Positions 2,208 through 33,684 of a stretch of 36,830 nt of DNA are shown here, one piece after another (position 1 is the first letter of the stretch; each line of letters opens with the position of its first letter). The DNA comes from Terramyces sp. JEL0728 (lineage: Eukaryota; Chytridiomycota; Chytridiomycetes; Rhizophydiales; Terramycetaceae): the NCBI GenBank assembly GCA_027603945.1, contig JADIIU010000124.1:1-36830 (forward strand). Direction: 5' to 3'. The translations under genes were made by a program, and so were the position numbers. Below the pieces are notes generated by a model. It was given only the letters and a program-made list of their open reading frames with translations, searched no databases and was not told the DNA's origin.

Positions 2208-4147
2208 TTACCATCCTAATCTGGAGATGAGTGCACTGATAAACCCATCGCAGTTTCCCAGTTTCGTTATTTTCAGTCCATGTATGTTTAGCAGCCAAAT
2301 CTTGCACAATTCAATGCCCATCGCCATACCTTCCCCTTCCACGTGAAATAGATAATATTCATTCGGTTTGGCAATAGTTATTTTGAAATTTTGCTTCATT
2401 TCAATCAAGGCTCGATGTAAATCTTGAAACATTGATGGTGGATCTAGTGTTGAAACCAACCCTTTCTTGAATTGGAATTTCATTGTATGGATTTCTGGCG
2501 GCGGTTTATGTATGAGATGCCATTCTGTGATATCTTGTTGATTTAACTGCAGGTCATTCGTGTCCGAAACCTTACTCATTCTATGAACTACAGAGACCTC
2601 TCTGCTTAGCGAATCTCCTTTCAGGTTGAGGTCCGTATCCGTTGTTGAACTTCTTTTATATTTGATATCGCTTGCATTGCTTTGGATTGACGCTCTGTGT
2701 CTATTCGGGGCTTTTTCTTTTACGGATTGGCTTCTTTTCATTGCATATCCAGCAGGGTTCTCCACAGGTTGAGAAGGTGATTCAGCGTTTTCAACACACG
2801 ACATTCGATTGAGAGAAACGTTACTGTCCTGAACATTGACAGATGATTGGCTGCTAGCTGCTGACTTTTCCGATTCCACAGAGATACTTTTTCTTTGTTT
2901 CAATTTTACTACATTTTTATTAGTGGATGCTCGACGATGTCTTTCGAACTGCTCGATATTTTTAGCCATTTCGGCATTTTTGTGATAATTGATGTTGTAG
3001 ATCGTAATGTTGTTTTCCAAAGTAACACTGGAAATCAGTTTTGCAAGAGCTTCCTTGTCTGTTAATAATGGCTCCGAGCGTTCTGGAGGATAGTCATAAC
3101 CAACATTTACCCATCTGCTACTCCAAAGCCCTTCCATATCAAGCCTCCTATTGGAATCATCGACCAATATTAATTTTAAAAGTGCGGTTATTTCCCAACT
3201 AAAGTGCTCTGGAATCTCGTACTGTACACCCTTGATTTTCTGAAATAGCGTTGATACAGTATCCCCCACAAATGGTAAATTGCCTGCTACCATTCCATAA
3301 AGAATAATGCCCATGGACCAGATATCTATTTTTGTGCCGTGGTAAGGCTGTCCTGAAATCATTTCTGGGGGAGAATAAGTAGGAGTGCCGCAAAACGTCT
3401 ATTATAAGAATGCAGATACCTTCATGTAATCGCTATTCTGAAATGCTCTTCCAAGTCCAAAATCCGTGACTAGCGCATTACATTGTTGGTCTAAGAGTAC
3501 ATTTTCCATCTTTAGGTCTCGATGCACAACATGAGACGAATGAATAAAATCCACTGCTGAAATAATCTGTCGAAAAATTCTACGCGCTTCAAGTTCAGTC
3601 AAAAACCCGTGTTTAGATACATGTCCGGCTAAATCCCCATTATAGGCATAGGCCCTACATTAAGAGGTCTTACATAACAATATAGACATCGTCGGGCGAT
3701 TCGAATACTTTGTATATTTTAATGATGTTTGGATGTTTGAATCGCATCATCAATAGCGCTTCTTGCTGGAATGAAGTGAGGGAATCTGTTACTGATGGGA
3801 CAGTTTCAAAGTCCATTGCTTTAGTTGTCTCTTGTTGGACTTTGTCAACAAACCGCGCCAAATTAATTTCATTTTCCTCCTTCAATGCTGGATTGGCTGC
3901 AATATCCTGCATTATATCCTGATAAATCTTTTTCCTTGCTTTTCGGAGCAATATTTTATCTACATCCTCCTGCATCTTTTTCTTGTTGGCATTCATTTCT
4001 TTGAGTTTTTCAATATTCATGATTTTTATCGCTACCTTGGTTAGCTGATTCCACCTTTTCTCCCGACGGTAGGTGCTTTCCCACCTTTACTTTTCCAAAC
4101 GCTCCTTCGCCGACAGTCTTTCCGATTTCGTAGTTTGATAGTTTCAT
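2208..4147 (-). CDS. Snf1/MARK-like Ser/Thr kinase with KA1 domain (copy 1)
   Basis: Four exons, 626 aa. Introns at 4036-4054 (19 nt), 3655-3673 (19 nt) and 3399-3419 (21 nt); without them the kinase appears broken. Visible: Gly loop GEGAFGKV, catalytic lysine VAIK (K35), HRDLKMENVLL, TDFGLG, activation loop TFCGTPTYSPPEM (an LKB1-type T-loop threonine by family), and WSMGIILYGMVAGNLPF. The C-terminal ~90 residues form a KA1 domain ending FISALISRLGW. Between them lies a Ser/Lys-rich linker. AMPK/MARK/NUAK kinases act in energy and polarity control; the substrate here is unknown. Odd: 87 residues separate K35 from the alpha-C glutamate (E123) instead of about 20, so a charged ~70-residue insert sits in the N-lobe. 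The next gene is a tandem paralogue with the same intron positions and insert. Confidence 0.9.
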
Positions 4148-4373
4148 AAAAATTATATTGCCAATCGTGGGAGAGAAAATCCAAGATAAACAAGACTGTC
4201 TGCAGTAGAGTTACTTTTTGAATTAATATCTGTTCTTTACAATAACAATTACAACTACTCGCTTTGGTGGATCAAGAAACTCGTAGGGTTAAGGTTGTAA
4301 CTCAAACAAGCAAATGCTATCCAATGCGAGAATAGAATTAGATTGCCAAACATTGAACAATATTTAGAATTTA

Positions 4374-6369
4374 TTACCAATTCAAATTTGTAATTAAATT
4401 CTGTATAAAAGTTTCTGCTTTACCAGTTTTTGTTATTTTCAACCCATGTAATTTTAAAAGCCAGATTTTACACAATTCAACATCCAGCGTGAACGATTCT
4501 CCTTCGATATGAAACATATAAAAATTATCCGGTTTAGATATCTTGATATTTTTCGTTCCAAGTTCGACAAGTGCTCGGTGCAGGTCTTGGAACATTGTTG
4601 GTGGATCTTGTGCTGACCAAAGCCCTTTTCTGAAACGAAATTTCATTGTACGTATTTCTTGTGGTGGTTTATGAACTAAATGCCAATCGCTTATTTCTTT
4701 GAATTTCAAATCATTGTCTGGAAATTGAGTGATGGAAACTTGACTCATTCTGCTGACTACTGACGACTCTCTGCTCATTTTCTCACTCTCTTCATTAGAA
4801 ATCATTTGCGATAATCTGTTTTCAGTGTTACTTCTTGGCCGGATGTTTGGCGCCTGTAATGAATGTCGTCCTTGGTGGTTTCCTCCTGGATGTAAGGAAC
4901 CACTGAATTTATTCGTATGAGGCGAATCTTCATTCGCAGAAATATTTCTGGCAATACTACTGGTTGAATTCTTGTTGGCTGCTGGATTTGCAATATCTTG
5001 TTTTGAGTTGGTTAAACTGGCTTTGGAAGTTGCTGGTGTTGATTTATCAATTTTGAGCTGTACTTGACTATTTGAATTTGCAGCATTTGGCTGTGAATTT
5101 ATACTTTTCTTTCTCCTCAACTCAGCTACGTTCACTGTCGCACTTCTGAGCCTCTGCTTTCTTTCAAACTTATCTATATTCTTTGCCATGGATTGATTTT
5201 GATGGCTATGGATATTGTAAATTGTGATATCGTTTTCGTGTATTACGCTTGAAATAAGTTTTGCCAGTTCATCTTTGTTCAAAGATGGTGGTTCAATTTG
5301 TAGAGGGTTTGTACCATGGCCCATATTTACCCAGCGATTATGCCTAATTCGGTCCATGTTTAATCTCGACTCTGGATCTGCAACAAGAATCTGACGCAAT
5401 AAATCAACCAGCTCCCAAGAAAAGTCTTTTGGTATTTCATAATCAGCATCCCTGAGCTTTTGAAGTAATGTCGATTCATAATCAGAAACAAATGGCAAAT
5501 TTCCTGCGTTCATCGCATAGAGAATAACCCCCATTGCCCAAATATCAGATTGCGTCCCATGATACGGCTTGCCCGCAAGTATTTCAGGTGCACAATAGCA
5601 CGGGGTACCACAGAAAGTCTATATAAGCTAGTCGTTACCTTCATGTAATCAGATTCGCCATACGCTCTGCTCAATCCAAAATCGCTAACAAGCGCGTTTC
5701 CAGATTGATCCAAGAGAATATTCTCCATTTTTAAATCTCTGTGAACTACATGCGAAGAATGGATAAAATCCATTGCAGAGACTATTTGTCGAAAGATCTT
5801 TCGCGCTTCTGTTTCGATTAAATGGCCGTATTGCGCAACATATTTTGCCAAATCACCACCAGGAGCGTAATCCCTACATCAACAACTTGCAGTACATTAC
5901 TATATAAATATCTTTGGTTGATTCGACTACCTGGTATATTTTGACGATATTTGGATGATTTAAACGCATCAACAATAGAACCTCTTTTTGGAACCCCGAC
6001 AGCGAATCAGTAACCGATGGCTCCTTTTCAAACTGGAGTCCTTTATTGGCACTTTCCTTGGCCTTTTGGACAAATTCAGCCAGATTGGCATTGTCGTTTT
6101 CCTTCCAATCGGGATTATTATTAAGCTGTTCAATTGCTTCAGCGTAAATCTTTTTCCGTGCTTTAACCGCAAGTATTTGATCGACCTTGTCTTGCGTTTT
6201 CTTTTTATCTTCTTCAGTTATTTGTAGTTCTTTAATATTCATTATTTTTATTGCGACCTTTGTTAGCTTTGAATACCTTTGCACCAGACAGTATGTGCTT
6301 TCCATATTTCACCTTTCCATAAGCTCCCTCTCCAAGCGATTTCCCAATTTCATAGTTTGATAATTTCAT
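4374..6369 (-). CDS. Snf1/MARK-like Ser/Thr kinase with KA1 domain (copy 2)
   Basis: Four exons, 644 aa, same strand as its paralogue at 2208-4147 with 226 nt between them. Introns at 6258-6276 (19 nt), 5874-5895 (22 nt) and 5619-5638 (20 nt) match the paralogue exactly in position and phase but not in sequence. Visible: GEGAYGKV, VAIKIMNI (K35), HRDLKMENILL, SDFGLS, TFCGTP followed by CAPEI, and a C-terminal KA1 domain (MKFRFRKGLWS start, end LITNLNW). It has the same 87-residue stretch between the VAIK lysine and the alpha-C glutamate. The linker between kinase and KA1 is low-complexity (Asn/Ser/His-rich) and diverged. All catalytic residues are present, so it is probably active. A recent-to-intermediate tandem duplication is inferred. 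Confidence 0.9.
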
Positions 6370-6646: not shown

Positions 6647-8188
6647 TTATTGGACTCTCTTGGAAACAATAACAGGCAAAGTCTCAAGTCTCAGTGTAGG
6701 TTTGGTTATTCCGTTTGCTACAAACCCAGCAGCGAGTTTGAATTTATACTTTTGCAGCAGGTGGATAAGGAAAACTTTGGCTTCAATCAACGCCATCTTT
6801 TGCCCAATGCAGTTATGCTGGCCATCACCAAATGGAATGAACGCTCCAGGAACGTGTGGTTCGTCCCAGCGGTCTGGATTGAACTTATGAGGCTCTTTGT
6901 AGTACTTTTCACTCATTTGGATAGACGCAATTCCAACCGAAATCTTTGTTCCTTTTGGAATTTTGTAACCCATAATTTCAGTGTCTTCAACTGCTACTCT
7001 TTGCACTGCGTTGACAATTGAATAAGTACGTTGGACTTCCTTGATAAATTTTTCCAGGTACTTGTAGTTGTACAGTTGGTCTACAAGTGATGGGTCGTCG
7101 AGATTGACACTCTTGATTTCATCGTACAACTTTGCTTCGACTTCAGGATGATCACAAATCTTGTATAATGCCCAACCCATGGTAGCAGAAGTAGTTTCAT
7201 GACCTGCAAAAAAGAAACCTAGCAACTCCCCATAGATTTCTTCTTTGGTGAATCCCTGTGTTAATATTGCAGTACATTTTCTTGTTTTAGTAATCGATGC
7301 AAAATATCCATATCCCAACTTTCCTGAACGATCGTTTTATCATTGATTTTTTGGATTCTTTCATCTGCCAATTTGTCCAAGAACGAAAAAACAGCCTTCT
7401 TGTTTGTTTGGATGAAATTGCTGTGCAAAGACACTCCGAAAAGGCTCCACAGGAATCTAGGCGTGATAACCCTCCATCTAATAGGCACGCTAACAAGATT
7501 TTCCAGTTCTTGCCATTGCTAAATTAATATTTGCTTACCCATTCGATATCTTCTTGCAACTTTTTTGTGGATCCAAAGCTATGATTGAAGCCAACCATTG
7601 AGATAACATCCAAAGTGACAGATTTGAAAGCAACAGTGAAATCCAGGGTAACGCCAGATTTGCCTTGCAGCTTTTCTTCAATAACTGTATCCAGATCCTT
7701 CATTGTATCTTCAGCGACCTTGCCTGCGTGGCGAAGGTGTGTAGGGCCAAACGCGGGTTGGAGCAGCTTTCTGTGCTTCTTCCAGTGATCGTTTGATGGC
7801 ATCGCGAAAAGGGCATTGTTCAGAATGCCGATGCCGATTTTCATGATGACTGTGTCTGACTTTACAAACGTAGACGAATTTAGTATCCGCTTGGCTTCCT
7901 GCGCGTTCACTACAAATACTGTTGGTCTATGTAAAAGCGTAAATACCCAATAAAATCCATTCTTAAGATGTCTCCATACTTTTCAACCATTTGCGCAACG
8001 TATTCATGTCGTTTTGATCTGAAAAGTGCTCTCAGTAAGCCTGGATTTCCAATAATTGGATAGTTCGGTGGACCTGGAATCTTACTGAGCGGGTCGTTGT
8101 AATCTTGGATTCGATCATACACGATTTTAGCCAGTACAACAGCGGCCGCTGATATTGCAATCGATGACAGAGTTTGATTGTCGATCAT
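6647..8188 (-). CDS. Cytochrome P450 monooxygenase
   Basis: Four exons, 493 aa, the usual P450 length. Three introns of exactly 20 nt at 7927-7946, 7519-7538 and 7256-7275. An N-terminal hydrophobic anchor (about residues 8-25) and a proline-rich hinge (KIPGPPNYPIIGNPG) indicate an ER-bound microsomal enzyme. Visible: I-helix oxygen-activation motif AGHETT, K-helix ExxR as EVQR, the PERF-like FNPDRW, and haem-Cys loop FGDGQHNCIGQK. The sequence is CYP4/CYP5-like in the I helix and haem loop, but I do not assign a CYP family or substrate. Splicing at 7927-7946 restores DFIGPTVFVVNAQEAK across the B-helix region. It is divergently transcribed from the alpha/beta hydrolase at 8547 across 358 nt, so shared regulation is possible but not shown. 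Confidence 0.92.
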
Positions 8189-8546: not shown

Positions 8547-10115
8547 ATGCTAACCATCTACCAAATCACTGTAGAATGGATCCATCTCAATACTGGGATA
8601 CCAAAACCATTCATCACACCGCTAATACTCTCATTAGCTTTTCTCTTGTGGTATTTTTATAAGGTAGAAAAAGCTCAACTATTTCATGCTACAAAAACAG
8701 CAGAAATAAAGTACAAATCACCAGTTACAAAAGAAATTAAATCGCTTCAACTTCACCAAATGATTAATCTCACTTGTCCTAGTCTTCAAACTTACTTTCT
8801 CCCTCATCCGCTATTAACCAACGGACATTTACAAACCTTTCATGCCTCAATATTTGCAGATTATATTTTCGAGCCCAAAGTCAAATTCCATAGACAGGTC
8901 GTTAATACCCCTGACGGCGGTGTAATTTCTCTGGATTGGTCAGAATTGCCGGTTGGAAATGCAAAGAGGACTCCATATTTGTTTATTCTTCATGGACTGA
9001 CTGGTGGATCACATGAAACGTATGTTCAGGATTTAGTAGTGGAAGCTAAAAAGTATGGATACGCTTCTATTGTGATGAATTTTAGAGGATGCTCAGAAAC
9101 ACCAGTGAAATCCGCTCAATTGTATTCAGGATCGTTTACTGGAGATGTAGAGTTGACTATTCAAGAAATCAAAAAGAGAGATCCATCTGCGGTATTATTT
9201 GGTGTTGGGTTTTCACTTGGATCTAATGTAATTGTTAAATATGCTGGTAAAATGGGAGGTATGTCGTTTTTAACAAAGAAAACTGTCCGTTGATTGGTGT
9301 AGTCAGTATTGGAAACCCTTATGACTTTTTGGGCTCAATGAGAGCATTGCATCGCACATGGATTGGCAGATACCTGTATTCAATCAAGATGGGACAAAAC
9401 TTGGCAAGATTAGTAAACAAGTAATTGGATTTAATATAGACACCACCATGCATTCAAAGATTGTGAATGGTTGGATATGGATAAAGTAAACAAGGCAACA
9501 AATATATTGGAATTTGATGCTGCTGCAACTTCAAAAGGCTTTGGATATAAAACAGTCCATGAATATTACAGATTTGGATCTTGTGCAATTGACATTCCGT
9601 ATGTTACCGTTCCAACTTTGTTACTGACTGCTCTGGATGATCCAATTTCAAATTGCGAAGTAATTCCATATTATGAAATTGAATCTAACCCAAATGTAGT
9701 ATTAGCGACTACTGGGGCTGGTGGGCATTTAGGGTGGTTCAAGATATCTCCAGAAATCGTCCCTACACAGCGATGGTTTGCCAAACCAGTTTCAGAATTT
9801 ATTCATTCTATTTTTGAAGCTAGATTTTCACTCGATGAACCAATTCAAATTCAACAAGATCTTTTACCGATTGGTACTCCTTGGCAATCTTTACCCGAAC
9901 ATGCTTTTGAAGCTCAAAGGATATTACTAGGAATCAAAAGGTATTTTTTGCTAACAAGAAATTCTATTCAAGTCGGTAAGATCTCTGTTCTAGATTCAAC
10001 AGTACAAACAATTGAAAGAGTACCAGAAGAGACAGAAACTTCAAACGTTGCAGTGCAGGCAGTAATTGAGAAAAAGTCTGCCTCATCCCAAATTACAAAG
10101 AAACAAAGTAATTGA
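8547..10115 (+). CDS. Alpha/beta hydrolase, ABHD1/3 - Eht1/Eeb1-like
   Basis: Three exons, 509 aa; introns 9259-9278 (20 nt) and 9421-9439 (19 nt). One N-terminal hydrophobic segment (about 20-37) suggests membrane anchoring. Visible: HGLTGGSHETY (oxyanion side), NFRGCSETP, nucleophile elbow GFSLGSN, acid ALDDPIS and catalytic His in GGHLGWF, giving a complete Ser-Asp-His triad. These motifs are typical of the ABHD1/2/3 and yeast Eht1/Eeb1/YMR210W group, which act as acyltransferases/esterases or lipases on medium-chain or phospholipid substrates. The substrate here cannot be told. The C-terminal ~50 residues are polar and low-complexity. Confidence 0.88.
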
Positions 10116-10265
10116 AATTAATCGTAGACACCTTTCTTTATATCATGAAATTACTAAACATTAATTCTACAACCATCATGTTCTTTTTACTTGGCTTCTT
10201 GTTTAAAAAGTACTTTAAATAAACTCCAATGGAATATATTGTTTATTCTAACCGATAAATAATTC

Positions 10266-10529
10266 TTAACCGTAGCAAACTTCACATTTAATTTCAGATG
10301 CAAACGAAACAGGTGGTTTGGTTCCCTTGATTGGGCAGAGGGTTGAAGTTGCTTGGACATTGAATTTGTATTCAGTGCATTTGCCGTCATTCATGTACCA
10401 TACTGAAGTAGCATTGGTTGGATTGCAAAGTTGGTGTTGAGCAAAATAAGTTGGAATTTTGGTAGATGACCAACAAGGGGATTCGCAAGATACTAGAGAT
10501 AAAGCGGCAGCCAAGAGAGTGAATTTCAT
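10266..10529 (-). CDS. Small secreted cysteine-rich protein
   Basis: 87 aa, single exon. The ATG at 10529 is chosen because it begins a clear signal peptide (MKFTLLAAALSLVSC). The mature part has about six or seven cysteines, one N-x-T sequon and no recognised domain; it ends in CEVCYG. The size, signal peptide and Cys content are those of a secreted effector-like or wall-associated small protein, but I do not recognise the family. A TATAAATAG box at 10555-10563 lies only about 26 nt upstream of the ATG, implying a very short leader. Confidence 0.65.
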   Translation of the reverse strand: MKFTLLAAALSLVSCESPCWSSTKIPTYFAQHQLCNPTNATSVWYMNDGKCTEYKFNVQATSTLCPIKGTKPPVSFASEIKCEVCYG

Positions 10530-10833
10530 TTTGGATAAAGAGAAGCTATGCTGGCTATTTATACTTTTTTTCTTTGTATTAAAATTCCTTTCTTGGCTAT
10601 TGTTGCCCCACACCTTAGAATCCTGAACACAAATTAAAAACTTTTTAATAACTCTGTGCTACGAGTAACAAACAGTTAGGAATCGTTTCGCTGGGCTTGT
10701 TGTGCCAGAGCATCCATTGCCAGGAATTAGCTAGAGTTTGGCGAGAGTCAGCAACATGAATCAGGGAATTATTCGAATCAAATCATGCATGGTCATAATT
10801 TTCAACCCCATTTTTCTCAACTTTTCATCAAAA
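10530..10833. promoter_or_regulatory. Divergent intergenic region with TATA box for the secreted-protein gene
   Basis: 304 nt between divergent start codons. TATAAATAG reads on the minus strand at 10555-10563. The remainder shows no ORF with domain-like sequence and no RNA gene that I can recognise. Confidence 0.45.
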
Positions 10834-11333
10834 ATGCGAGCCTTGGATCTAGTCTACCTGGGATTCTTTGCATCACACATTCCAGCATCTCTCTTTATTG
10901 ACGGACAAGTCCTATTTCCAAAATCGTTCTTTCCCGATGCATGCAGGACCGCATTACAGCATTGGGTTGGAATTTCAAAAGATCCATGGATGACACAAGT
11001 GGTTTTCGATCAGCCAGTTGATCACTGGTTCAAATCAATTATATTCGGTACTCATTATATAATGCAGGTGAATTTATTTTCCAACTCCCGCTGTTCTTTT
11101 ATTTCATCTACGCAATTTTGAATGGTATCAGAGCAACCAATTTGAAATTACTCTACAGTGCTCATGTATGTACGACAATGATTCCGATACTAGGTGAGCT
11201 GCTCGTGTATAAAGCTCCGCTCGAAAGCAAAATCATTTTAATGGCTGCTTATTTGCCTTACTTGATTATTCCTCTTATTTTTATGGTTGATACTTTAGCT
11301 CATCAAAATAAGACAAAGTTAAAGAAAGAATAA
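10834..11333 (+). CDS. TMEM97 / EXPERA-family membrane protein
   Basis: Two exons, 159 aa; intron 11048-11067 (20 nt). The start MRALDLVYLGFF is chosen because TMEM97 proteins begin immediately before the first membrane helix; upstream in-frame codons would add a polar extension. The sequence LGFFASHIPASLFIDGQ and following FPKSFFPD matches the first EXPERA helix and loop of TMEM97 (sigma-2 receptor/MAC30). Four hydrophobic helices follow from the spliced frame (FIFQLPLFFYFIYAILNG and two more). A C-terminal lysine cluster (KTKLKKE) looks like an ER-retrieval signal. The family is related to emopamil-binding sterol isomerases and is tied to sterol trafficking; the exact role is inferred. Its stop lies 47 nt from the stop of the convergent HEAT gene. 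Confidence 0.85.
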
Positions 11334-11380
11334 AAAAGAATCGGTGATATAATCTAGGGTTATAAATAATGTATTTGGAA

Positions 11381-14300
11381 CTAGCTTGTCTCCACTAACG
11401 GGGCTGTAGGTTCCACTGAACTTTCCACCACCGGAACTACTGTCAGCTCCTTCTCTTCCGAACCCAGCTCTTTTGTTTTTTCTTGCTCAGCTTGAGTAGA
11501 AAATCTCCATTTAAGTAGCCCTTGAAGTAAATCTTTATCGGGGTATTCCTCCATATTGCCAAGAATAACTGCTTCCTTCATAATATTGATTGTGTCTGAA
11601 TGTTCATCCCCAGAATGGTCGGTAAATCCTTCCAACACTTCTCTGACTTTCTTCTCGCCCAGATGTTGCACCATGTTGATTGCAATACTACGTACTTCAC
11701 TGTCGGGATCTCTCCATAATTCAATTAATAGTTTGAGGATTCTTTGTTGCATTTCTCGTTCTTCAAAATGGATAATCAACTGTGCAGCTGTGGTTGCAAA
11801 ATCAGCTTTCTAGGGTTAGTTTTATATACCTTTCTAAACAGTGTATAATTTTCTTTTTCCATTCTGTCCATCGTGTCCGTAACAAAGTCCTTTACCAAAG
11901 GTTTTAGCTGTTCGTGTTCATTCAAGTTGTCAACAACTGCGACGAGGTAAACCAATGCGTCGATTACAACCATCCTGAAACCACGATGTTCCTCATCGAT
12001 TAATTTCGATATGAATTTGAATGCTTCGCATGTAAAGTATTCCGAGATTCCTTCTGTCAGAATATAATATAATCCGTACCCAGCAAGGACATTCTGCGAT
12101 AATATGGTCACTATACGTAGATAGTCGCTCTCAGAATCAACCTCGCCATTCCATTGATCGTTTTTGTTATCAATCAAGTCAACTTTTTCCGTTTTACCTG
12201 ATTTGACAACATCAAGAATGGCTTCTTGCGATAAATCACGAAGTTCTTGAATAGCTGCTATTTGTTCATCGGAAATAATAGGGATATCGGAAAATTGGTT
12301 GGCGAAATAGAACGACTGTTCCATATCAAAGTAAAGTGATTCTCGGAGTTTAGCTGATACGCTGCAGCATACTGAAATTATATTTTGTAATCTTTCGATC
12401 CATGTTTGCACATATTCACCTTCTGTTCCAAACGCGACTAGCAAATTCGATAAAAGACTGATTTTAATAGACATCATTCCAACATCCTTGTCTTCTTCGA
12501 TTTGCTCGTCGGTTTTCCCCTCTGCCTGCGGTATGATTTTCGCAACTTCTTCCAGGTTGAAAAGGATATCAGAAACTATCCTCTCTGCAATCATTGGTGA
12601 GAATTTTACCAATACTTTCAAGATGGACAATGGTCGGATTTTCTTTAGAGTCTCCATTTCCTCTTCGTTTAATGGATGAGCTGCGTTTGAAACTCCAGTA
12701 AGAATTTTCTTTTCTACATATTCAAGAATACTCAGAGTAACTGGTTCCATGGCGTTGGCGAATAGGGCTTCGTTCATTCCCAATCTCTTTGTAGCATCAA
12801 TGCGTTTCTTTGATTTAAAGTATTTGACATTAAATGGATCTGCGTTGGGATCAAACTCTTGGCCGTCGTCATCTTTCTTTGGCGTGGTATTGACTTGGAT
12901 TGCGACTTGGCTCATGCATGGTAGCGTGGCCAATTCCAATATTAAATCTCTAGGTCCAGTGATTGGAGCAAGCTTTCGAACATCCGCCAAGGCAAAATCA
13001 ACAAGATTGTCTTCCAAGACAATATTTCTAGCGGTTTCACGAATCTATATTAGAGTCTTTGCTACCTTGCTGTTGCAATCTCCCAAAAAGTTGAAGAGGA
13101 ACGAGATTGACTCATCATTTTGAAGGCTTTTTGCAAATATTCTGTATATTTCTAGTGATTGAAGTCTATCATGGGGATGTTTGGATCGTAAAAACTTTTT
13201 AGCTTGGACCGCCATTGATCTAAATAAAGGATGTCGCTCTCCACCGTTTACAAGAAGCCGTCCTGCAACTCGGTACACTTTTGCTCTTGCGCCAGTAGGT
13301 ATCGATTCGAGTAGAGTTTGGAATGAATCTAGAACATCCTTGTATCCATCTTGTGAGCCGATCAGTGAAAATTCAGCAACCAGGTGCGCTGCAAATATCC
13401 GTTTATCTTGAGTGTGTCTGCTACTGCTAGTGAGAGCGCAAAGATTAGCTACCAACGTTGTAATTTGTGTGGCACTTAGATTACGCAAGAACTCAAACAA
13501 ATAAACCATCGCAATCAAATCTCCTTCGGCAAGCACTGTATTTGTGGTTATTCTATCCAAAACCCCGTTTGCCATTGCTCTTGAATGATCCAGAATATTT
13601 GCCAAGCCAGCAATACTAGCTTCCAGCAATGCTTTGTTTTCTGTGTTTAATTCACAGGACAAGTTGGACAACAGTTTCCCAGCAGACTCTTCAAACAAAT
13701 CGTCATGGAGAATACCAAATTCTGCTAATACTAAAATCATTGGCCCCTAAAGTTATTCCCAGTTACATGTAAGTGTGGTAACTCTGCATACATATTCAAA
13801 TGATACAGCACTATTTCTTGCGACGATTGCGGAAGAGTGTGAACCATACTTTGAACCAGCTCTTTGAATCTTTCCATAAGCTTCTTTGATATTGTGGGAA
13901 GATGGAATAACTCATCTTCAGGAGGCTATAATTAACTAGAATTACCAATGCGTATGGCATCTCGACTATTAAATCGTCAATATTAAAAGATAGATCGCCA
14001 ATGTACTTTACGTTGACAGCCAAAGTGCTGTGGTCTGTGAGGATATCCTCCCATGTAATAATCGGCAATATCGGGCTGTCATCTGGATGTGGAAGGACAG
14101 TGCTACATCGCAAAACAATAAATGATTGGACATTTCTCCGGAATTTAGACCACAATAATCTGACATCGTAGTTCAAATCAGCAAACAGTGGCAGCAAAAT
14201 CCATACAATAGTAGTTGTCTCTAACGAATCCATAACAGATATCAAATTGATTATAGATGCCACTGCGTTGATTCTAAATATCGCCTTTGGATGCTTCAAA

Positions 14301-23730: not shown

Positions 23731-23934
23731 ATTTCATTGAACAGTTATAGTATAGCTGTCACAGTCGCATTCTCCAAATTCTAAAATCGCTGTGGAAACG
23801 TACATTCTGTCTTACTGGCTATTTTGTTTTGACGACTCTGTGATATCCACTAGTGATAATTGCCAGATTGTTTCAAAGGGGCTACTTTTTCTTTTCCATT
23901 TCTCAGTCACATACCAAGTCACAATAATATGGAC

Positions 23935-24096
23935 GTAGTCACTTTTCTAACTTAGTTCCAGTTAAAGCAAGATGTCCCGCAACAAAAGCTTCCAGTACGT
24001 GCGTTACTAACAGCAGGCAAGTGTATTTCTAACCATAGGTAACAGCCGACTAATTTTAGGTTTGAATGAATTTAATTTAGGTATGGGTGCAATTAG
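23935..24096 (+). other. Cluster of tandem, partly abutting intron-like units
   Basis: Five consecutive units each start GT, hold a YTAAY branch-like site and end AG: 23935-23955 (21 nt), 23995-24013 or -24016 (19/22, tandem CAGCAG acceptor), 24021-24038 (18), 24039-24059 (21) and 24060-24080 (21). The last three abut with no exon between them. A sixth, weaker GT...AG stretch runs 24081-24096 (16 nt). They cover the 5' end of the gene ending at 24792 and make its exact splicing undecidable from DNA alone. Confidence 0.6.
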
Positions 24097-24792
24097 CAAG
24101 ATTCGGTCTGGATCAAGTACATGTTGATCTGGTTGGTAGGCAGACTCAGTTGCATGTACATCCGCAAACACATATGGACGGTCTGGTTCGGCAGCTGATT
24201 CATGACGATGCATTTAGAGACGAAACAGCAAACTTGGGAACAGCAAAGCTCAGAGTGTTTACTAGACTCGTGCTTAATAATGGCAGACATGCTCCGATTG
24301 AGGAATTGGAACCGTATACGCTCGTGGACGGGCTGGGACAGAATGGAACGATGCCGTTGATTGTCGTCGCTCCGCCAAGGAATAATCTTTCATTTGGAGA
24401 AGAAATGGAATCGCTAGCTTATTCTCAGAATGCACAATACACAATGGTAACCGCAACTAATCTAGCCATATATGGTCCAGCCAATGAGACATTCAGTACT
24501 CTTTGCTAACATAGCTTGGACTAGCAATACCAACTTATGAAGACTATGGAGATGATTCTAAACCTAGACGCAAAAAAGCCGGCTCAGATTCACCAAATTC
24601 CAAATCAATCGAGGAAAAACGCAAGGCAGATAGGATCAGACAGCGTAAATGCAGAGCTAGGAAAAAGGTATTTTGGATTTGACGAAGCAACTAAAGCTGC
24701 AGCAAGAGATGCAGGGACTGGCAGAGTTGCCGGGAATGGCGTCTTTTAGTCAACAAATTCAAATACCACCAGAAATGCGTGATTTTAAATAA
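23972..24792 (+). CDS. Ubiquitin-like (Crinkler-type?) header with basic C-terminal tail; 5' end uncertain
   Basis: Body is clear, 5' end is not. Introns 24447-24465 (19), 24496-24514 (19) and 24668-24687 (20) join ...QYTM / PYMVQPMRHS / LGLAIPTYEDYG... / CRARKK / QLKLQQEMQG and give a stop at 24792. With ATG 23972, a 4-nt micro-exon at 24017-24020 and removal of 24021-24080, the product is 226 aa and in frame. An alternative uses ATG 23929, a 21-nt intron and removal of 23995-24080. The N-terminal ~90 residues (VHVDLVG ... MDGLVRQLIHDDAF ... LGTAKLRVFT ... MPLIVVAPP) look like the ubiquitin-like header of Crinkler proteins, but this is a weak match. The C-terminal helix KRKADRIRQRKCRARKK is bZIP-like in charge but lacks the invariant basic-region Asn. 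Nuclear role is a guess. Confidence 0.5.
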
Positions 24793-24932: not shown

Positions 24933-25927
24933 ATGCAAGCGATTTTTGTTGGCACTGGAACAAGCGGGAACGTACCATACATTTCTTGTTTAATCGAAGA
25001 GCCAGTGACCTGCAAGGTATGCAAATCAGCGCTCCAGACCACACAACCACCAACTGAATTATCGTTACCACTGATAAGTAAAAACAGAAGGAGGAATACC
25101 TGCTGTCTAGTCCGTGTTCCCCATCCTGATGGCCGCATGAGGTTATTGCAGTTAATATAGGAATATACTCATTGACTGTGGAAAGACGTTTTACGAATCT
25201 GCATTGACGTGGTTCACACAGTACCGGATTCGAAATTTGGATGGGGTGATACTAACCCATGGACATGCAGATGCAATGATGGGTACATTTTACTAATGAA
25301 GGCTTGGATGATTTGAGGCAGTGGACAATGGCACCAGGGAGTAAACCAGGATTGCAAGAAACAGTGAACATCTATTTGGATGCGGATACGATGAAGGTAG
25401 TCGGCAGTGCATTTCCGTACATGGTTGATAAGGCGAATGCTACTGGTAGTGGTGAAGTTGCTTCATTAAAATTCCATTCAATTAGTGATTCAGAGCCGTT
25501 TGAAATTGATGGGATACGCATCCAGCCGTTCAAAGGTTTCTTTTGTTAATTCAGTGGAACATGGTAAAGTAAAAGGCGGCGAGCCTTACTATGCTCTTGG
25601 ATTCAGGATTAATGATTTTGCATACGTGTCAGATACAAATAGGATCCCACAAGAGAGTATGGATGTAATTAAAGGATCAAAGACAATTGTAATGGATGCA
25701 CTTAGACGTACTGTTTATTAATTGTAGCGGCACCGCACTCGTCCCATTTTTCATTCCAGCAAGCTTTCGACACCCTGGAGCAGCTCTTGCCAGATGAAGG
25801 CAAAGGCTACTTTGTTGGTCTAACGCATGACCTTGACCATGACCAAATTATTGAATGGATTCAAGACCAGCATGGTTCAAAGAACATTACGTGTGCTTAC
25901 GACGGACTAAAGATTGATATTAAATAA
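24933..25927 (+). CDS. Metallo-beta-lactamase-fold hydrolase (PhnP / SPAC/SPBC C777.06c-like)
   Basis: Five exons, 305 aa; introns 25142-25160 (19), 25283-25301 (19), 25536-25554 (19), 25708-25727 (20). The ATG at 24933 gives [16 protein letters not shown], the usual N-terminal strand and Gly loop. Visible: Cys pair [21 protein letters not shown], metal motif [16 protein letters not shown] (THxHxDH variant with Ala in place of the last His), [23 protein letters not shown] and LTHDLDH. The CxxC and RRNT block is characteristic of the fungal C777.06c/PhnP-like group, which in bacteria includes cyclic phosphodiesterases. Substrate unknown. Intron 2 falls directly after the HGHADAMMG metal motif. 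Convergent with the OSR1-like kinase; the stops are 54 nt apart. Confidence 0.88.
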
Positions 25928-25981: not shown

Positions 25982-28066
25982 TCAAATTTCCGAGTCGACA
26001 GAGCTACTTCTTTGCACCGCCAACAACCCGTTCTTGTTTAAAAGATTAACAAAATCTTGGATGATCTGTGATTGTAATTCCACCCGCTGTTTCAGCTGAG
26101 TGATTTTTTCTGCATCGGGTAAATCACCTGGGATAGGTTGGAGAGTCTGAGATAAAAGTGGATGTGCTTGTGCTAGAATTTCTTGTGTTGTTGCATCAAT
26201 TACTTTGAATCTGCTCTTTCTATCTACCGTTAATCCTAGCTTACCGCCTGTGGAGGCAATCGAGCTTACAGTAGCTTGATTTGGAGACATTGACAATGGG
26301 TTATCGGTGATGACAGTAAACTTTCTTGGAATTTTGGGTCCTTCAGTAGCAGGGATAACCGGCGATGTTTTTGCACTTGGCGGCAAGTTTTGGAAAGCAA
26401 ATCTACCAGCTTTTCTCTCTAGAGCTACTGTTAACTCGGAAATTACAATTGTAATTTTCAGACATGTTTGTTTCAGACGATCCTGTTAGCGTTTGTGTCA
26501 GTGGTAAATTTGGCAAAACTGGAGCAGCTCCTGAATTGCTTGTAACACTGTTAGCATTTGCACCTAGATTTGTCATGCTTGCTTGTGAATTGACACTAAA
26601 CCTTCCCTTTTTCACTTCAGGAGCTGCTGGCGTTTCAGGCTGCGGTTCGGGTTTGACAGCTGGTGCATTTGGATTATCAACTACGAATCTACTTTTCCTT
26701 GGGAGAGTTGAATCTATGGACCCTTTATGTTCAGATTCTCTAACTTCTACCATTAATAGCTCTAACCTCCAAACGATACAGACTTTGGTCTTTCCAATGT
26801 GTTTGATGGATCATTGGTTAATTCGTCTCTAATGATATTCTCCAATCTCTTTTCATCTTTTTTCTCTGGGTATGGAAGTGATCTTTCACCAGCAGACTTG
26901 TCATCGAAATCCCATTCATCTCCAGTCTTTTCCGCAGTCAGCTCCTCCAAATTTACTTGCGACTGCGTTCTATGCTGTCTCTCAGTAATTGGTGTCAAGT
27001 CTTTCAACAATGTCCCAACCAAATACTGTGGTTTCTTGGCTGTTTTAAAGAACGGGTGGGTCAACAATTTTTCTGCAGTTGGTCTCTTTGTAGGATCTTT
27101 TTGGAGACATGAATCAATCACATCTTTGAATGATTTCGAGTATTTATGGAATGTCTTTTCGCGATCCAAAGTGGGAGGACTATTCTGTAATGTCAACATC
27201 AACACTTTCTAGGATTAATGGCATGTACCATTGGCGGATACTTTGCGTAGGGAGCGTGTCCATTGGCAAGCTCGAGTGCTGTGATACCAAAACTCCAGAC
27301 ATCAGCTTTAAAATCATATCCAGATTGGTCCATAACTTCTATTTGTTAGTTTTTTATAACCTGGGGCCATCCAACACGGAGTCCCGACAAACGTTTTTCT
27401 GCTGGCGTTTCTATTCCCATTTTCACTCAAAGATGAGGAAACTCCAAAATCTGCAAGTTGAACTAACCCATCGGTATTCACCAATAGATTTCCAGCCTTA
27501 ATATCACGGTGAATCAGCCCTTGCGCATGCAAATACTCTAAACCCTGTAAAACTTGCTTGAGAATAGTTGCAATAACGGCTTCCTCCATCCCGTTCTTGT
27601 ACGCTGTTTTCATAATATCCAATCCAGATCCGGCAGATAAAAACGGTGTGACAATAAAGAGCTTGCTCCCATTAACAAACGATCCATAAACTGGCAGTAA
27701 ATTCGTGTGCTTTGATAAAGTCATAATCTGCAGTTCGCGCTACATTAACAAATATTACTCGCAATTCATCAATTTGATTACGTTCAAACAAATCCAAATC
27801 TATAACTTTGATACTCACAGGCAAGTTTTGCAACTTGTAATTTGCCAAGTATACGGTTGCTGACGAGCCTTGACCTTTGGTTAGTAGCGAGTACCAATAA
27901 CTTGTTTTAATTCATAATCTTCTGGTTTCATTGAAAATCCTTCGGTTGGTACAGCTGTATTTGAGGTTGTACGTCGCATAGTTCCGTTTAGTCTCATTCC
28001 AATCCCTCCTAGTTTGGCTTCGATTGCATCCTTTGCTGTTTCAGCTATAGACTGCCTTCGCTCCAT
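25982..28066 (-). CDS. Ste20-family Ser/Thr kinase, OSR1/SPAK/Fray-like
   Basis: Seven exons, 654 aa. Introns: 27875-27894 (20), 27740-27758 (19), 27339-27360 (22), 27209-27228 (20), 26747-26766 (20), 26429-26447 (19; 22 with tandem CAGTAG acceptor). The ATG 28066 gives MERRQSIAE. Visible: [43 protein letters not shown], the Ste20 signature [42 protein letters not shown], and [20 protein letters not shown]. These identify the OSR1/SPAK branch, which in animals is activated by WNK kinases and controls ion transport. The C-terminal tail lacks a recognisable CCT domain but holds RFxV motifs RFVV (~423), RFSV (~454) and RFKV (~577), plus KFTV (~542), and ends in a predicted helix. Conserved T-loop Thr is present. 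Confidence 0.9.
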
Positions 28067-28486: not shown

Positions 28487-29772
28487 TTATTCAAGTAATT
28501 CAGCCAATCTGCGACAAGCTTCATCCATCTCTTCTTCGGTAGCATAAGAATAAGAAGCCCTGACATACCCAGTATCTCTCTTGTTTGGATAAAATTCCTG
28601 CATTAGTAAAAGTTACCACTCCAGGCACGAGCAGGATTTTGGCTTCGCGAGCTTTGTTTGTTATCAGGTCGAATGAATCTTTGATTGGTAGTTTTATCCA
28701 TACAAACATGCCAGCTTCAGGTACAGTCCATTCCGCCTTGCCTTTCAAGTGAGTTTCAAGGCTCTTTAGGAATGCGTCTCTTCTTTTTGCATAGAAACCG
28801 GCAACCGTTCTTGTATGTTCCAAGAATCCGTTTACCCCCCATTTGTTCAGGACAGTATGGACCAAAAGCTGGCTTACACCAGATGGATGCAAATTAGTAG
28901 CCATTCCGTGTAGTACAATTCGTTCAATTAAAGCTGGTGGGCCAGATACCCATCCAACACGCATACCTCCAGACAAAATCTTTGATACAGAATCAAAACG
29001 CAACACCCTGCCATCGCAATCTAGTGAAAAGTAACTAGGAGTAAGAGGAGTCTTGAATTGCAAATAATAATATGGATCATCCTAAATTAATAAAAAGCAC
29101 CTCCAAAATAATAATATTATACCGTTGTGCGATATCGTATACTCTCTTTTTCCTTTCGTAAATAGTAGATAACCCGGTTGGGTTGCCAGCAGTTGGAACA
29201 GTGTACAACACTTTAGGTCTCGTTTGAGCATCCGGCCAGTTTTCAAGTGCTTGTTCCAGTGCATCCGGCTGAATTCCTTCACTATCAACAGGTATTTCCA
29301 AAAACTTGGCCCCCAATGGTCGGAGGAAAGCCAATATCCCGACATATGTTGGTGTTTCAATCAGAATTGTGTCTCCAGGATTGATCAATGCTTCCATTGC
29401 CTTGGTAATCAAATCTTGGCTTCCATTACCTACGCAAATGTCATAAGATTGATAAGGCGGATTATGAACTTGCTCTTGCAATTGGCGTAACCAATCAACT
29501 AATTGCGATTCGCCAGAAGTCGTGCCATACTGGAGCGCTTTATCCAGCACTTTATCTTTCAATTCAATAGTTTCGCCAGTCTTTAATTTTACGGAAATGG
29601 ATTCAAATGGAAATGTTTGAGTGTTGGGAAGACCTCCTCCTAATGAAATCATTCCAGGAACTGAAAGGTATTTTTGCATCGCCCGAATTGCCGAGTGTTT
29701 GCGTAGCTTACTGTTCTCTGAAAAGAATTTTGTATAGTCCATTATTTGGTTAAAAGTTGAAAATCTTTTCAT
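28487..29772 (-). CDS. PLP-dependent aminotransferase, 2-aminoadipate / kynurenine (AADAT/KAT II, Aro8-like)
   Basis: Three exons, 415 aa; introns 29082-29100 (19) and 28598-28616 (19). N-terminal MDYTKFFSENSKLRKHSAIR followed by MISLGGGLPNTQTFPF resembles human AADAT closely. Visible: ALQYGTTSGESQLVDWL, VGNGSQDLITKAME, ETPTYVGILAFLRPLG, YTVPTAGNPTGLS, IILEDDPYYYLQF (restored by splicing), PLP lysine in DSVSKILSGGMRVGW, and the C-terminal substrate arginine in GYVRASYS. By family it transfers amino groups among 2-aminoadipate, kynurenine and aromatic amino acids with 2-oxoglutarate, in lysine synthesis or aromatic catabolism. A second in-frame Met at MDYTKFF could be the start of a cytosolic form. 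The first 11 residues (MKRFSTFNQI) are weakly targeting-like. Confidence 0.93.
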
Positions 29773-30150: not shown

Positions 30151-30203
30151 TAATTTTTTTTTCAGGCATTTGCACTGCTTTTTTTCTCACCTTACAAAAC
30201 AAA

Positions 30204-30484
30204 ATGGTAGGAGCAATCAATGCAGCAAATGCGACAAAGAACAGGACTAACAATAGGATTCCGCAAAAGCTGCAACAGCAAAGAATGCTCGTGTCACCAA
30301 AGTATTAGGACGTACCGGATCACGGTAAATACAAATTAATTATAGTGGTGGAGTCACTCAAGTCAGAGTTGAAATCATGGAAGAAGGAAACCGTTCCATC
30401 ATCCGTAACGTTAAAGGCCCAGTTCGTGAAGGAGATATTTTAGTTCTATTGGAATCCGAACGTGAAGCCAGACGTCTTCGTTAA
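30204..30484 (+). CDS. RPS28: 40S ribosomal protein eS28
   Basis: Three exons, 69 aa. Exon 1 is only the ATG (30204-30206). Intron 1 (30207-30256, 50 nt) separates it from GATTCC..., giving [20 protein letters not shown]. Intron 2 (30325-30345, 21 nt) restores [15 protein letters not shown]. The rest, [20 protein letters not shown] and [10 protein letters not shown], is nearly invariant in eS28. It binds at the head of the 40S subunit near the mRNA exit. Intron 1 is the only intron in the window longer than 22 nt, has a GACTAAC branch site, and directly follows the start codon, as in many fungal ribosomal-protein genes. Confidence 0.95.
30207..30256 (+). other. 50-nt intron directly after the eS28 start codon
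   Basis: Donor GTAGG, branch-like GACTAAC at 30244-30250, acceptor AATAG. It is needed to join the ATG to the conserved eS28 N-terminus, and no other ATG is in frame. It is 2.5 times the usual intron length of this genome. Confidence 0.75.
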
Positions 30485-30756
30485 ATATGTTTAAATAAAC
30501 AATTGGAATTTAATACAGGATAAAATTGGATTAAATGCGGATATTGGAGTATTGTTTTCACTCAGTTGGAGTAATGGGAGGCTGTAAACGACTTTGAAGT
30601 AATTCGTTTTATCCATTTTGAATATTCTAAATTATAAGCAAACAGCGAATACTTGGTGAGACAAGATGAGCACCTCTTACCAGTCTGCAGAAATCTCCAA
30701 GTTTAGTTCTGTTATGATAGTTGTCCAATAGTTGAGTTTGTAAAATCAAAAAACAA

Positions 30757-33684
30757 ATGGCGACGCACACCATTTTAGTAACGATATTTGAAGGTACACG
30801 GAATAATAACGCAAGGGAAAAACTTTATAAAGCGTCATGACCAAGTATATATCCAGTGCAGGTTCAACAACGAGATCCTCACCACAGATCCAGTCCTACA
30901 GTCGAAATCACCAATATTTGACACTGAGCTGGCTTGGGATATAGAGCACAAACAACTCTCCTTCTTGCGGTCCCAACGAGGTATACCCTGACTTATCCAG
31001 CAACCCTAAAACTTCAAGTTTACTCGATAAACAACCACTCCCAGCGCGAACTTTTGGGCTATATTATACTCGACCTGCGTGCAGCTAGCGGACAGCCGCC
31101 GTACGCAGAGAAATGGTATACGCTTATCAACACAAAGAATACTTCGCCTTTCAAACCGCAGCTGAAATTATCTTTTGCAGTTTCCAGTGCGAAAACTGCG
31201 TTTATCCTTGAACCAAAGAGTCCAAACTCTAAAGTCAACAGTCCGTCAATCAGACCTAAAGTTCATTTGACTAGTGAAGGGTATTATCAAGTTGGGCCGT
31301 ACGACAAGAACCAGCATACTTATACTTTATGGATTACCATTGCTTTTGCACAGCATTTATTATTGATCAAGCCAGAACCGAATCAGATTGATTTCTATTT
31401 CTATTATACTTTATTAGGTGCAGATATACAAACTGGTAGATTCCAAAATTTGTCTGATCCAAATTTCCCAGCTGAACGTGTTTCTATTAGGTTTAGAGCA
31501 TTTCCTTCCGATTTATCTCTCTTGTTGGTTCAAATCAACAAGCTGGTTATTTATCTGTGCCAAGGAAGTGTGGTGCTTGGAGTTTGCGAGGTATCAATGC
31601 AAACTCTTGCAAAGAAAGTAGATCAGGACGATGTAGTATTTGAAGAAAACGTTTATCCACTTGTTGGAACCAAGATGGGAGTGGATTTTGGCAGTGATGG
31701 AATTATTCCTGGTATTGGAGTTTCGTTAGCACTGAAACGAGGAGAATTTGAAGGAGCTGGAGTTGTCAGGGAAAGCAATGCCTTTGAGAGTGTTCCGCAG
31801 ACTCCAATCTTTACTTTAGCCAAACCGGATATTCCAAGCAATGTCGCGCACAACACTGTTATTGCAACCGACAAACCCATTACTCCAGTCCAGGTTGCAG
31901 AGGCAAAAAAAGACACGAACAAACCGAATTTCGTTGATAACCACAATGCAAACACAAAGACATCAGGGACTAATGCAAACACAAAGGCGTCAGCAGCAGA
32001 AAAGCCAGTCAAGTTGCTTTCTGTGGATGTACAAGAACCAAGAACTTCTATGGATGACAAGAGAAAGAATTCAACAGTCGAATCAACGAATATCCCACCT
32101 GTACAAGTACCAGATTCAAATTATTCAATTTTGAATCAGAGCCATAAATTACAAAGGGAATCTGAAATTTCCCACCGGACCGAAATACAGAATAATGCAA
32201 AGACTAGCTACGAGCTATTTGGGGCAACGTCAAATGAATGGCACCAATACAGATTCTCTATTGAATTGCGTTCAATTAGAGATTTCAAAATGAAATCAGC
32301 TCAAGTATTCTTGCAGTACACTTATGCCCCATTTGGCAGCTCAACTCCTACTTCTACTCATCCAGTTGTTCAAATTGTACAGAACGAGGCTGAATTTTTG
32401 CTTCCGCATTCATTTTGTGCTTTTGAATTTGCAATGCTGCAGGATCAGCTAGAAGCCGCACTAGAAACAGTACCGCTACTAGTTAAAGTATTCCATAAAG
32501 ATCCGCATCAAAAGAACATCCTGTTGGGCGAATGTTCGGTTGAGCTCCATCATATTTTGCAAGCATCAAAAACAAGTAGTGGCTCGCAATCACTCCAAAC
32601 CCTAGATATATTTACTCCTATTATTTCTTCAGGAATAGTTTCTGAAAAGTACAAGAGCTTTGGAGAGTTGCGCACTATTTTTTCCCTTGAAGATTTTGGA
32701 CAAATTGACATGGATGAGCTTGGAGGAAAAACTAAGGATGGTGGAAAGGTAGAGTTGGATAAACGATATACATTTCAATCTAATAACGATATTCATGGAA
32801 CAATCCAGTATGAAACTGCGGTGGAACTGGAGTTTTGGAAGCATACAGAGCAGGAAAAGTTTTTACTTGAATTGGCAGAGAAAGAACGTCAATTGGAAGC
32901 CAAGTATGAAAAAGAGTATGAAGCAAGGGAAAGAGAGCGCGAAGCAATAATGCATGCCAAATTACATGAATACAAAGATAAAGTGGCAAAACTTGGTGAA
33001 CTTGCAAATAAATTACAAGATCGAGAAGCGTTGATTAGAAAGGCAGAGAGTGATTTAGCGAATAGATCAAAGCAACTTGAAATTGATACTCTGCGGCAAT
33101 CGGATGCACAGAAAGACTCAAACAAACGGTTGGCAGAGTCACTGTCCCATGCCACTCAGCTATCACAGCAGCGATTGGAAGAAGCTGAAAAAAGCGCAAA
33201 GAACTATGAAAAAGAACGAGATTTAATACGTGCTCGCGTGTTGCAACTGGAAATTGAAAATGCAAAACTGAAATCAGACAAGAGCAATACCGTGATGATC
33301 CAGCAATTGCAGCAGGAAAAGGAAGTGCTTGAACAGAGATGTAAGCGGCTTGTATCATCACGACACGAGCTAAAGAAAAAGTACAAGCAAGTAGTTCAGC
33401 TGTACCAAGATACAAAGACAAAAGTATTGTCTGAAAATAGCGATACTAAATCCCAGCTTACGCAGCTCGCCAAACAAGTAACCGACTTACAAGAAAAGAA
33501 AGTTGAACCTAAAGTCAAGCCTGCTGATGAAAACAAGGAAAATGAACTGGATTCAAGTACACGCAATGCAATAGAGCGTATAAAAACTGAAAAAGCGCAG
33601 CTGCTAGAATCAGGACTGTACAAGGAAACCGATCCGCTAATCAAAGAATTCAACAGCAACCTAACGCTCTTGCTATCCAAATGA
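30757..33684 (+). CDS. CEP120: Centriole/basal-body protein CEP120
   Basis: Three exons, 961 aa; introns 30794-30815 (22) and 30981-31000 (20). The N-terminal C2 domain matches animal CEP120 closely: ILVTIFEGKNFIKR, LTTDPV, FDTELAWDIEHK, LLGYIILDLRAA, EKWYTLINTK. Two more C2-type regions follow (about 110-240 and 440-580), separated by a Thr/Asn/Lys-rich disordered linker. A long C-terminal coiled coil (about 670-900) is of the kind that mediates dimerisation and centriole targeting. CEP120 promotes centriole elongation and daughter-centriole assembly. Its presence implies a centriolar life stage, so a flagellated zoospore. Its stop lies 15 nt from the stop of the convergent heat-shock gene. 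Confidence 0.9.

Follow-up and report, generated by a model that had tools for sequence, protein, structure and literature searches.

Tiny introns in a chytrid contig

How short can the introns of a fungus be, and can they be that short throughout its genome? The question is raised by contig JADIIU010000124.1 of Terramyces sp. JEL0728 (assembly GCA_027603945.1), a strain that we take to be free-living and, judging by its name, to come from a culture collection. The contig was analysed at its full length of 36,830 nucleotides (nt) and is called the window here; positions are those of its forward strand. Between positions 2208 and 33684 the reading frames are interrupted by segments of mostly 19–22 nt that start with GT and end with AG. 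We read these as real U2-type spliceosomal introns at near-minimal size, spread genome-wide in Terramyces, and put the probability of this reading, which is drawn from DNA and predicted protein sequences, at about 0.93.

Gene models of the window, in which learned motifs and a length preference were used, placed 57 introns, spread over 16 of the 21 models that reach 60 amino acids (AA); shorter models were dropped and are not counted. One intron was 16 nt long, 17 were 19 nt, 23 were 20 nt, ten were 21 nt, five were 22 nt and one was 50 nt. A first-pass annotation of the same DNA had claimed that almost all introns measure 19–22 nt (18, 22, 6, 3 and 1 at 19, 20, 21, 22 and 50 nt, likewise in 16 genes), and our inventory bears this out. 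The donor was GTA in 50 of 57 cases, GTT in five and GTG in two. Nine introns are less secure, namely those starting at 10108, 17606, 23935, 30794 and 30981 and four within 23995–24080.

Controls for chance matches

For the control analyses we used bases 10001–20000 of the 20 largest contigs together with the window (236,830 bases on 21 contigs, 1.6% of an assembly of 231 contigs and 15,016,339 bases). This sample was scanned with a codon model in which jumps of 15–30 nt were allowed and each of the 256 dinucleotide pairs was taken in turn as the jump ends. GT–AG gave the highest score gain (764; runner-up 641, mean 347, standard deviation 128) and the most 19–22-nt jumps (74; runner-up 39, mean 14.7), yet this pair is less frequent in the sample than the average pair. 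As the codon model had been trained on GT–AG gene predictions, the scan was repeated with a model trained solely on long stop-to-stop open reading frames (ORFs), with the same outcome: GT–AG, the ends of U2-type introns, was again the top pair both by score gain (379; runner-up 332, mean 189, standard deviation 63) and by number of 19–22-nt jumps (63; runner-up 29, mean 10.2). An early scan with a weak jump penalty had given GT–AG a gain of 589, with 567 for the strongest of eight alternatives, and, at 16–24 nt, 50 jumps vs. 18, its tail being swamped by chance joins; an early overlap test yielded only seven ORF pairs, too few to inform.

Both scans found their introns without use of either GTA or TAAY (Y, pyrimidine). 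Among these motif-blind 19–22-nt introns, GTA formed the start of 65 of 74 (first model) and 53 of 63 (ORF-only model). At 1–5 nt upstream of the AG, TAAY was seen in 47 of the 74 and in 38 of the 63. The background in all GT..AG spans of equal lengths was 27–33% for GTA and 7–9% for TAAY.

A gene-free count of GTA...TAAY.{1,4}AG gave 72, 86, 54 and 23 matches at 19, 20, 21 and 22 nt and 4–25 matches at each remaining length between 13 and 60 nt, flat from 23 to 60 nt. Given this background, the gene-free peak lies at 19–21 nt and the 22-nt class is marginal when taken alone. Altered control motifs also rose at 19–21 nt (57/54/38 for YAAT..AG and 11/36/35 for TAAY..GA), probably through overlap with, or a one-base shift from, the same introns. 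Relative to ORF-only genes, 78 of the 19–21-nt motif matches were in sense, 16 in antisense orientation and 118 near neither, a count that omits matches in regions covered on both strands and is based on models that leave broken genes uncalled. Over the whole genome, a strict 20-nt pattern occurred 1,739 times vs. 91 times for the reversed pattern, which is a 19-fold excess. The motif-informed model predicted 19–22-nt introns on all 21 sampled contigs, and the 175–220 introns in 237 kb suggest, as an extrapolation from a small sample, some 11,000–14,000 genome-wide. The length mode is narrow, peaking at 19–22 nt and hence below about 25 nt.

These counts bear on two other readings. According to the first, indels of assembly or sequencing caused the breaks, and the motifs arose by chance. 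An indel would not bring a 19–22-nt GTA...TAAY..AG module, and the motifs of the motif-blind introns, the gene-free length peak, the genome-wide excess and the junctions shared with GenBank proteins, in one case by complete identity (see below), refute this explanation, to which we give practically no chance. According to the second, the introns are real but many longer ones were invisible to a short-intron model, and "almost all" is overstated. The window does hold one 50-nt intron, and when a flat length prior of 15–120 nt was combined with learned motifs, 121 of 326 jumps in genes of at least 300 coding bases fell outside 19–22 nt. These jumps are, however, thinly spread over many lengths, as expected of chance joins; without the restriction on gene size, 220 of 456 jumps measured 19–22 nt and the remainder were again scattered. 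The motif count stays level between 23 and 60 nt (the gene finder covered lengths up to 120 nt), and all 18 introns of the genes encoding Prp8 (six), a HEAT-repeat protein (eight) and U2AF65 (four) are 19–22 nt long, a count weakened by the length preference with which those of the latter two genes were modelled. A hidden class of longer introns is, in our judgement, quite unlikely.

Architecture of the introns

A typical intron starts with a GTA donor, has a YTAAY branch site whose A is nucleotide 14–15, and ends in a YAG acceptor 5–6 nt past that A. TAAY, complementary to U2, was present in 51 of the 74 motif-blind introns; in these the branch A stood at position 14 with 5 bases behind it in 16 introns, at 14 with 6 in 14, at 15 with 5 in seven, at 15 with 6 in five, and in other combinations in nine. 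In 44 of the 51, the branch A thus occupied position 14 or 15, which confirms in sharper form the short donor–branch spacing noted earlier. Intron length is thus set mainly by two distances, each of which takes two principal values, and lengths of 19–22 nt arise from the combination of these nearly fixed distances.

In the motif-informed set (n = 205), donors were GTA (191), GTG (8) and GTT (6), acceptors were TAG (146), CAG (46) and AAG (13), and G+C content was 30%. No run of six or more pyrimidines was found in the nine bases before the AG in any of the 205 introns. Intron phases 0, 1 and 2 were represented by 121, 61 and 38 introns (n = 220); in both sets the motif shares are partly built in by the learned motifs. 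The donors have little consensus beyond GTA. U12-type introns have a long invariant donor and a TCCTTAAC branch. In-frame stops occurred in 36 of 43 introns of 21 nt vs. 98 of 177 at other lengths (p 0.0005). The excess resembles a pattern reported for ciliates (PMC5014332), but as stopless 21-nt introns are hard to detect, we do not rely on it.

Exact boundaries and public gene models

The gene for Prp8 carries six introns of 20, 19, 22, 21, 21 and 21 nt. Three of them came from the gene finder and three (the 22-nt, one 21-nt and the last 21-nt intron) were placed by hand with the help of protein motifs that we take to be conserved; the last one replaces a premature stop. The spliced product of 2,329 residues aligned with human Prp8 over 6–2311 and was 98% identical to Prp8 of Boothiomyces sp. 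JEL0866 (GenBank, P0001). The two differed in net length at one place only, the first junction, where the Boothiomyces protein has seven additional residues (RLSFTNC); the remaining small differences were all away from junctions. When the first Terramyces intron is read through as coding, it gives KVDFTNCRK. Judged by this peptide, the JEL0866 model seems to have retained as coding sequence a homologous intron of 21 nt, ending ACTAACTGTAG; if so, a tiny Prp8 intron is common to Terramyces and Boothiomyces.

Comparisons with GenBank were made on protein sequences rather than exon coordinates. The spliced eight-intron model of the HEAT-repeat protein was identical, letter for letter, to GenBank protein HDV01_001114, and hence tiny introns are already present in public annotation. 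The spliced guanylate cyclase (20850–23730) was identical to GenBank protein P0121 except at one junction, so that five of six junctions agreed. At the sixth (21979–21997), P0121 lacks 22 residues that are kept in two Boothiomyces homologues, and the homologue of Boothiomyces JEL0866 (P0122) has seven extra residues. It seems that in at least three of eight database proteins examined (P0001, P0121 and P0122) one tiny intron was either translated as exon or exchanged for a longer intron, a warning for gene finding in such genomes that some public models mishandle tiny introns.

The nearest relatives by protein were Boothiomyces, with 77% (cyclase) and 88% (HEAT-repeat protein) identity. The taxonomy database places Boothiomyces in the Terramycetaceae (Rhizophydiales, Chytridiomycota), where we take Terramyces to belong likewise. 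Compressed introns of about 20 nt are probably found in Boothiomyces too. The first-pass annotation had spoken of an ultrashort-intron genome in a fungus-like organism: the genome is indeed of this kind, and the organism is not merely fungus-like, being a true fungus of the Chytridiomycota.

Removal of the segments had also been claimed to restore conserved sequence, and this could be seen in the kinase motif WMAPEV, in RGKGGAV of a glycosyltransferase and in the Prp8 alignment, as well as in Pfam matches for nine of ten spliced proteins scanned (from the 16 intron-bearing window proteins). Of those ten, a bZIP-like protein was unmatched, and one kinase (kinase 1 below) was matched in two stretches.

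Splicing machinery

Of the major spliceosome, Prp8, U2, U2AF65 and SF1 were observed in the genome. U2 small nuclear RNA (snRNA) matched with 140 bits and is canonical, with the GTAGTA stretch present. The U2AF65 gene scored 251.7 bits in unspliced DNA, below the family cut-off of 310.3, and reached 334 bits after removal of four introns of 20, 20, 19 and 19 nt, the family match then running to the C-terminal end. SF1 was above its cut-off, in two exon pieces. A check of spliceosome genes, as proposed in the first pass, thus yielded Prp8, SF1, U2AF65 and a canonical U2, and failed for U6, in a search that had no positive control. The Rfam model for U6 gave two weak matches only, below the cut-off and not U6-like, and patterns for a U6 split by an intron matched at chance level (6 and 5 vs. 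3 and 1 for reversed patterns). Possible reasons for missing U1 and U6 are a gap in the assembly, sequence divergence, limits of the search and an intron that splits U6. No Rfam family matched in the window or in 14 of the 20 loci sampled.

The same machinery speaks to a further explanation, namely that the 19–22-nt segments are excised at the DNA level, in the manner of internal eliminated sequences, or bypassed in translation. It gains from the non-detection of U1 and U6 and from the fact that splicing is deduced here from sequence. However, the segments have GT–AG ends and a YTAAY complementary to the branch-recognition stretch of U2, the genome encodes U2, Prp8, U2AF65 and SF1, and the Prp8 and U2AF65 genes themselves carry such segments. 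We regard DNA elimination or translational skipping as very improbable.

Several points weigh against the reading of the segments as spliceosomal introns throughout the genome. That they are spliced from RNA is something we infer. U1 and U6 snRNA were not found genome-wide, nor was RED found in the genome, all in searches without a positive control. The sample covers 1.6% of the assembly and includes no contigs other than the 20 largest and that of the window. One window intron (30207–30256) measures 50 nt, 23 of the 74 motif-blind introns are without TAAY, and the gene-free count at 22 nt (23) is within the background range of 4–25. Finally, the GenBank protein models that share our junctions are themselves predictions.

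A possible mechanism

If the segments are indeed spliced, recognition would proceed by intron definition, with U2 pairing with YTAAY and U6 and U5 holding the GTA end. The acceptor would be the first AG after the branch, and with that rule a polypyrimidine tract would not be needed. With only 13–14 nt from donor to branch A, U1 and U2 small nuclear ribonucleoproteins (snRNPs) could probably not sit side by side on one intron. Since such co-binding is hardly possible, a handover is likely: recognition would probably depend on U1 quickly passing the donor on to the tri-snRNP. A wider proposal, in which early assembly has changed, with sequential recognition, no intron ever being bound by U1 and U2 at once, U2AF retained for a different function and the two spacings acting as a length ruler, is put forward tentatively, and we hold it to be doubtful as a whole.

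Human systems reportedly require some 50 nt between donor and branch, and with 35 nt early assembly was lost on one pre-mRNA (PMC6692369). The SMU1–RED pair is described as relieving the strain of a short donor–branch distance (PMC6692369). Human cells need RED where this distance is short. The spliceosome of Terramyces, in which Prp8, U2, U2AF65 and SF1 are conserved, apparently copes with 13–14 nt; such tolerance would follow only if the RNAs are spliced at these sites. As for the origin of the introns, deletion bias would have shrunk them until both spacings hit a mechanical minimum. The stop of lengths near 19 nt may be best explained by deletion bias against a functional floor, as has been proposed for mikrocytids (PMC10245619). 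Both the handover from U1 and this deletion history are steps that we infer.

Introns of the window, gene by gene

Two kinase paralogues lie on the reverse strand. Kinase 1 (2208–4147) has introns at 3399–3419 (21 nt), 3655–3673 (19 nt) and 4036–4054 (19 nt, GTG donor, just before VAIK), and kinase 2 (4374–6369) at 5619–5638 (20 nt), 5874–5895 (22 nt) and 6258–6276 (19 nt). All three sites are shared in aligned residue and phase: residue 31, phase 0 (4036–4054 and 6258–6276; 19/19 nt), residue 151, phase 2 (3655–3673 and 5874–5895; 19/22 nt) and residue 230, phase 0 (3399–3419 and 5619–5638; 21/20 nt). A third kinase (kinase 3, 25982–28066, reverse strand) has six introns. Those at 26425–26446 (22 nt) and 26747–26766 (20 nt, GTT donor) follow from the gene model, and those at 27209–27228 (20 nt), 27740–27758 (19 nt) and 27875–27894 (20 nt) from model and Pfam; the one at 27339–27360 (22 nt, GTT donor) (model and Pfam) has a low motif score, yet its removal yields WMAPEV. 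Elsewhere in the assembly, pairs of kinase matches whose scores are equal or nearly so lie tens of kb apart on one contig (contigs C18, C26, C3 and C42; for example, C18:59977 and C18:121750), which suggests large recent duplications or assembly duplication.

Other reverse-strand genes were the following. The cytochrome P450 gene (6647–8188) contains three 20-nt introns backed by model and Pfam (7256–7275, 7519–7538 and 7927–7946), and its spliced product matches the P450 family over 38–465 in one stretch. In the HEAT-repeat gene (11381–17450), the introns whose removal gives the HDV01_001114 sequence are found at 11810–11829, 13747–13766, 13926–13945 and 15429–15448 (20 nt each), 13045–13065 and 14761–14781 (21 nt each), and 15688–15706 and 16625–16643 (19 nt each). 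The aminotransferase gene (28487–29742) has 19-nt introns at 28598–28616, with the domain 68–400 matched in one stretch, and at 29082–29100 (GTG donor; model and Pfam).

On the forward strand, the alpha/beta hydrolase gene (8547–10222) has introns at 9259–9278 (20 nt) and 9421–9439 (19 nt), both from model and Pfam, and a less secure 20-nt candidate at its 3′ end, outside the conserved domain (10108–10127). A single 20-nt intron (11048–11067) interrupts the gene of an EXPERA/EBP-family protein (10834–11333), whose domain 40–146 is matched in one stretch. The gene model for protein 17566–18117 has a 21-nt intron at 17759–17779 and a less secure 21-nt candidate with a low motif score at 17606–17626, and that for protein 18722–19349 has two 20-nt introns (18890–18909 and 19100–19119). 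The family-2 glycosyltransferase (19514–20489), presumably Alg5-like, has 20-nt introns at 19915–19934, where the junction reads RGKGGAV, and at 20122–20141 (both model and Pfam).

The cyclase is a PAS-guanylate cyclase with a coiled coil recognised by eye, and both Kappamyces and Globomyces have homologues of it. Its forward-strand introns with junctions as in P0121 are 21246–21266 (21 nt), 21588–21607 (20 nt), 22911–22929 (19 nt), 23519–23537 (19 nt) and 23630–23649 (20 nt); the deviating one at 21979–21997 is 19 nt long. Four introns interrupt the forward-strand gene of a metallo-beta-lactamase-fold protein (ending at 25927), all from model and Pfam: 25142–25160 and 25536–25554 (19 nt, GTT donors), 25283–25301 (19 nt) and 25708–25727 (20 nt). 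Gene 30204–30484 (forward strand), which we take to encode ribosomal protein eS28, has the sole long intron of the window models directly after its ATG (30207–30256, 50 nt) and a 21-nt intron from the gene model at 30325–30345. Near the start of gene 30757–33684, on the same strand, there are two less secure candidates (30794–30815, 22 nt; 30981–31000, 20 nt).

The forward-strand gene 23929–24792, bZIP-like by eye and without a Pfam match, has 19-nt introns at 24447–24465 and 24496–24514 (gene model) and a 20-nt intron with a TTGAC branch variant at 24668–24687. At its start lie a less secure 21-nt candidate (23935–23955) and a cluster of four intron-like modules (23995–24080), modelled as 22, 16, 21 and 21 nt, of which the second to fourth stand head to tail with no exon between them. 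The exon start at 24081 agrees with database proteins P0122 and P0123, and the cluster could be one longer intron or be removed stepwise. As a rule, head-to-tail tandem introns can be ruled out, with no gap-0 pairs among 400 matches of score above 7.5 in 278 kb; the window nonetheless has this one cluster, with weaker scores.

Comparison with known systems

The known genomes of this kind are those of heterotrich ciliates (introns of 15–16 nt), mikrocytids (16–17 nt) and nucleomorphs (18–21 nt) (PMC10245619), and a 23-nt intron of Trichomonas was called comparable only with Stentor and Bigelowiella in 2025 (PMC12316389). Among the matches listed, mainly titles and abstracts, we found no paper on ultrashort introns in Terramyces or Boothiomyces or on a fungus with such a mode, and a word search of three chytrid genome papers gave no passage with such intron lengths. 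Terramyces is, as far as seen, an apparently undescribed ultrashort-intron genome and the first in a fungus. The first-pass annotation likewise knew of no fungus with so narrow a mode near 20 nt; GenBank models already contain such introns.

In size class the nearest counterpart is the chlorarachniophyte nucleomorph of Bigelowiella natans, with numerous introns in a narrow range of 18–21 nt (PMC10245619). That is a remnant algal nucleus in extreme reduction, whereas Terramyces has a 15-Mb fungal nuclear genome. The 15–16-nt introns of the free-living heterotrich Stentor coeruleus share with those of Terramyces a GUA start and 5 nt after the branch A, which is at position 10 of 15 (PMC9505925); the donor–branch distance in Stentor is 4 nt shorter and its branch consensus is weak, whereas YTAAY is clear in Terramyces. 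Mikrocytid introns (16–17 nt) are also narrow in range and conserved in sequence, but they belong to a parasite with 224 introns and a highly reduced spliceosome (PMC10245619). Terramyces retains U2AF65 and SF1, and one strict pattern by itself matches its genome 1,739 times.

As in Yarrowia lipolytica and Trichomonas (PMC2483917), the branch motif keeps a set distance of a few nt from the AG and there is no polypyrimidine tract. The introns of Yarrowia and Trichomonas are longer, with means seemingly near 269 and 101 nt in that source, and compact in the 3′ half only. Among fungi, Cryptococcus neoformans has many ultrashort introns below 60 nt, some of them in the 20–40-nt bin (PMC11913375), yet the mean reported is 63 bp (PMC8476143), not a mode of 19–22 nt. 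In Terramyces, ultrashort introns are thus met in a fungus, and not in a nucleomorph, ciliate or parasite. At about 20 nt they are about as short as introns known in any organism, which makes this a fungus in which to ask for the minimum intron size of splicing; the lower limit of intron size and the need for joint U1 and U2 binding become testable in comparison with its chytrid relatives.

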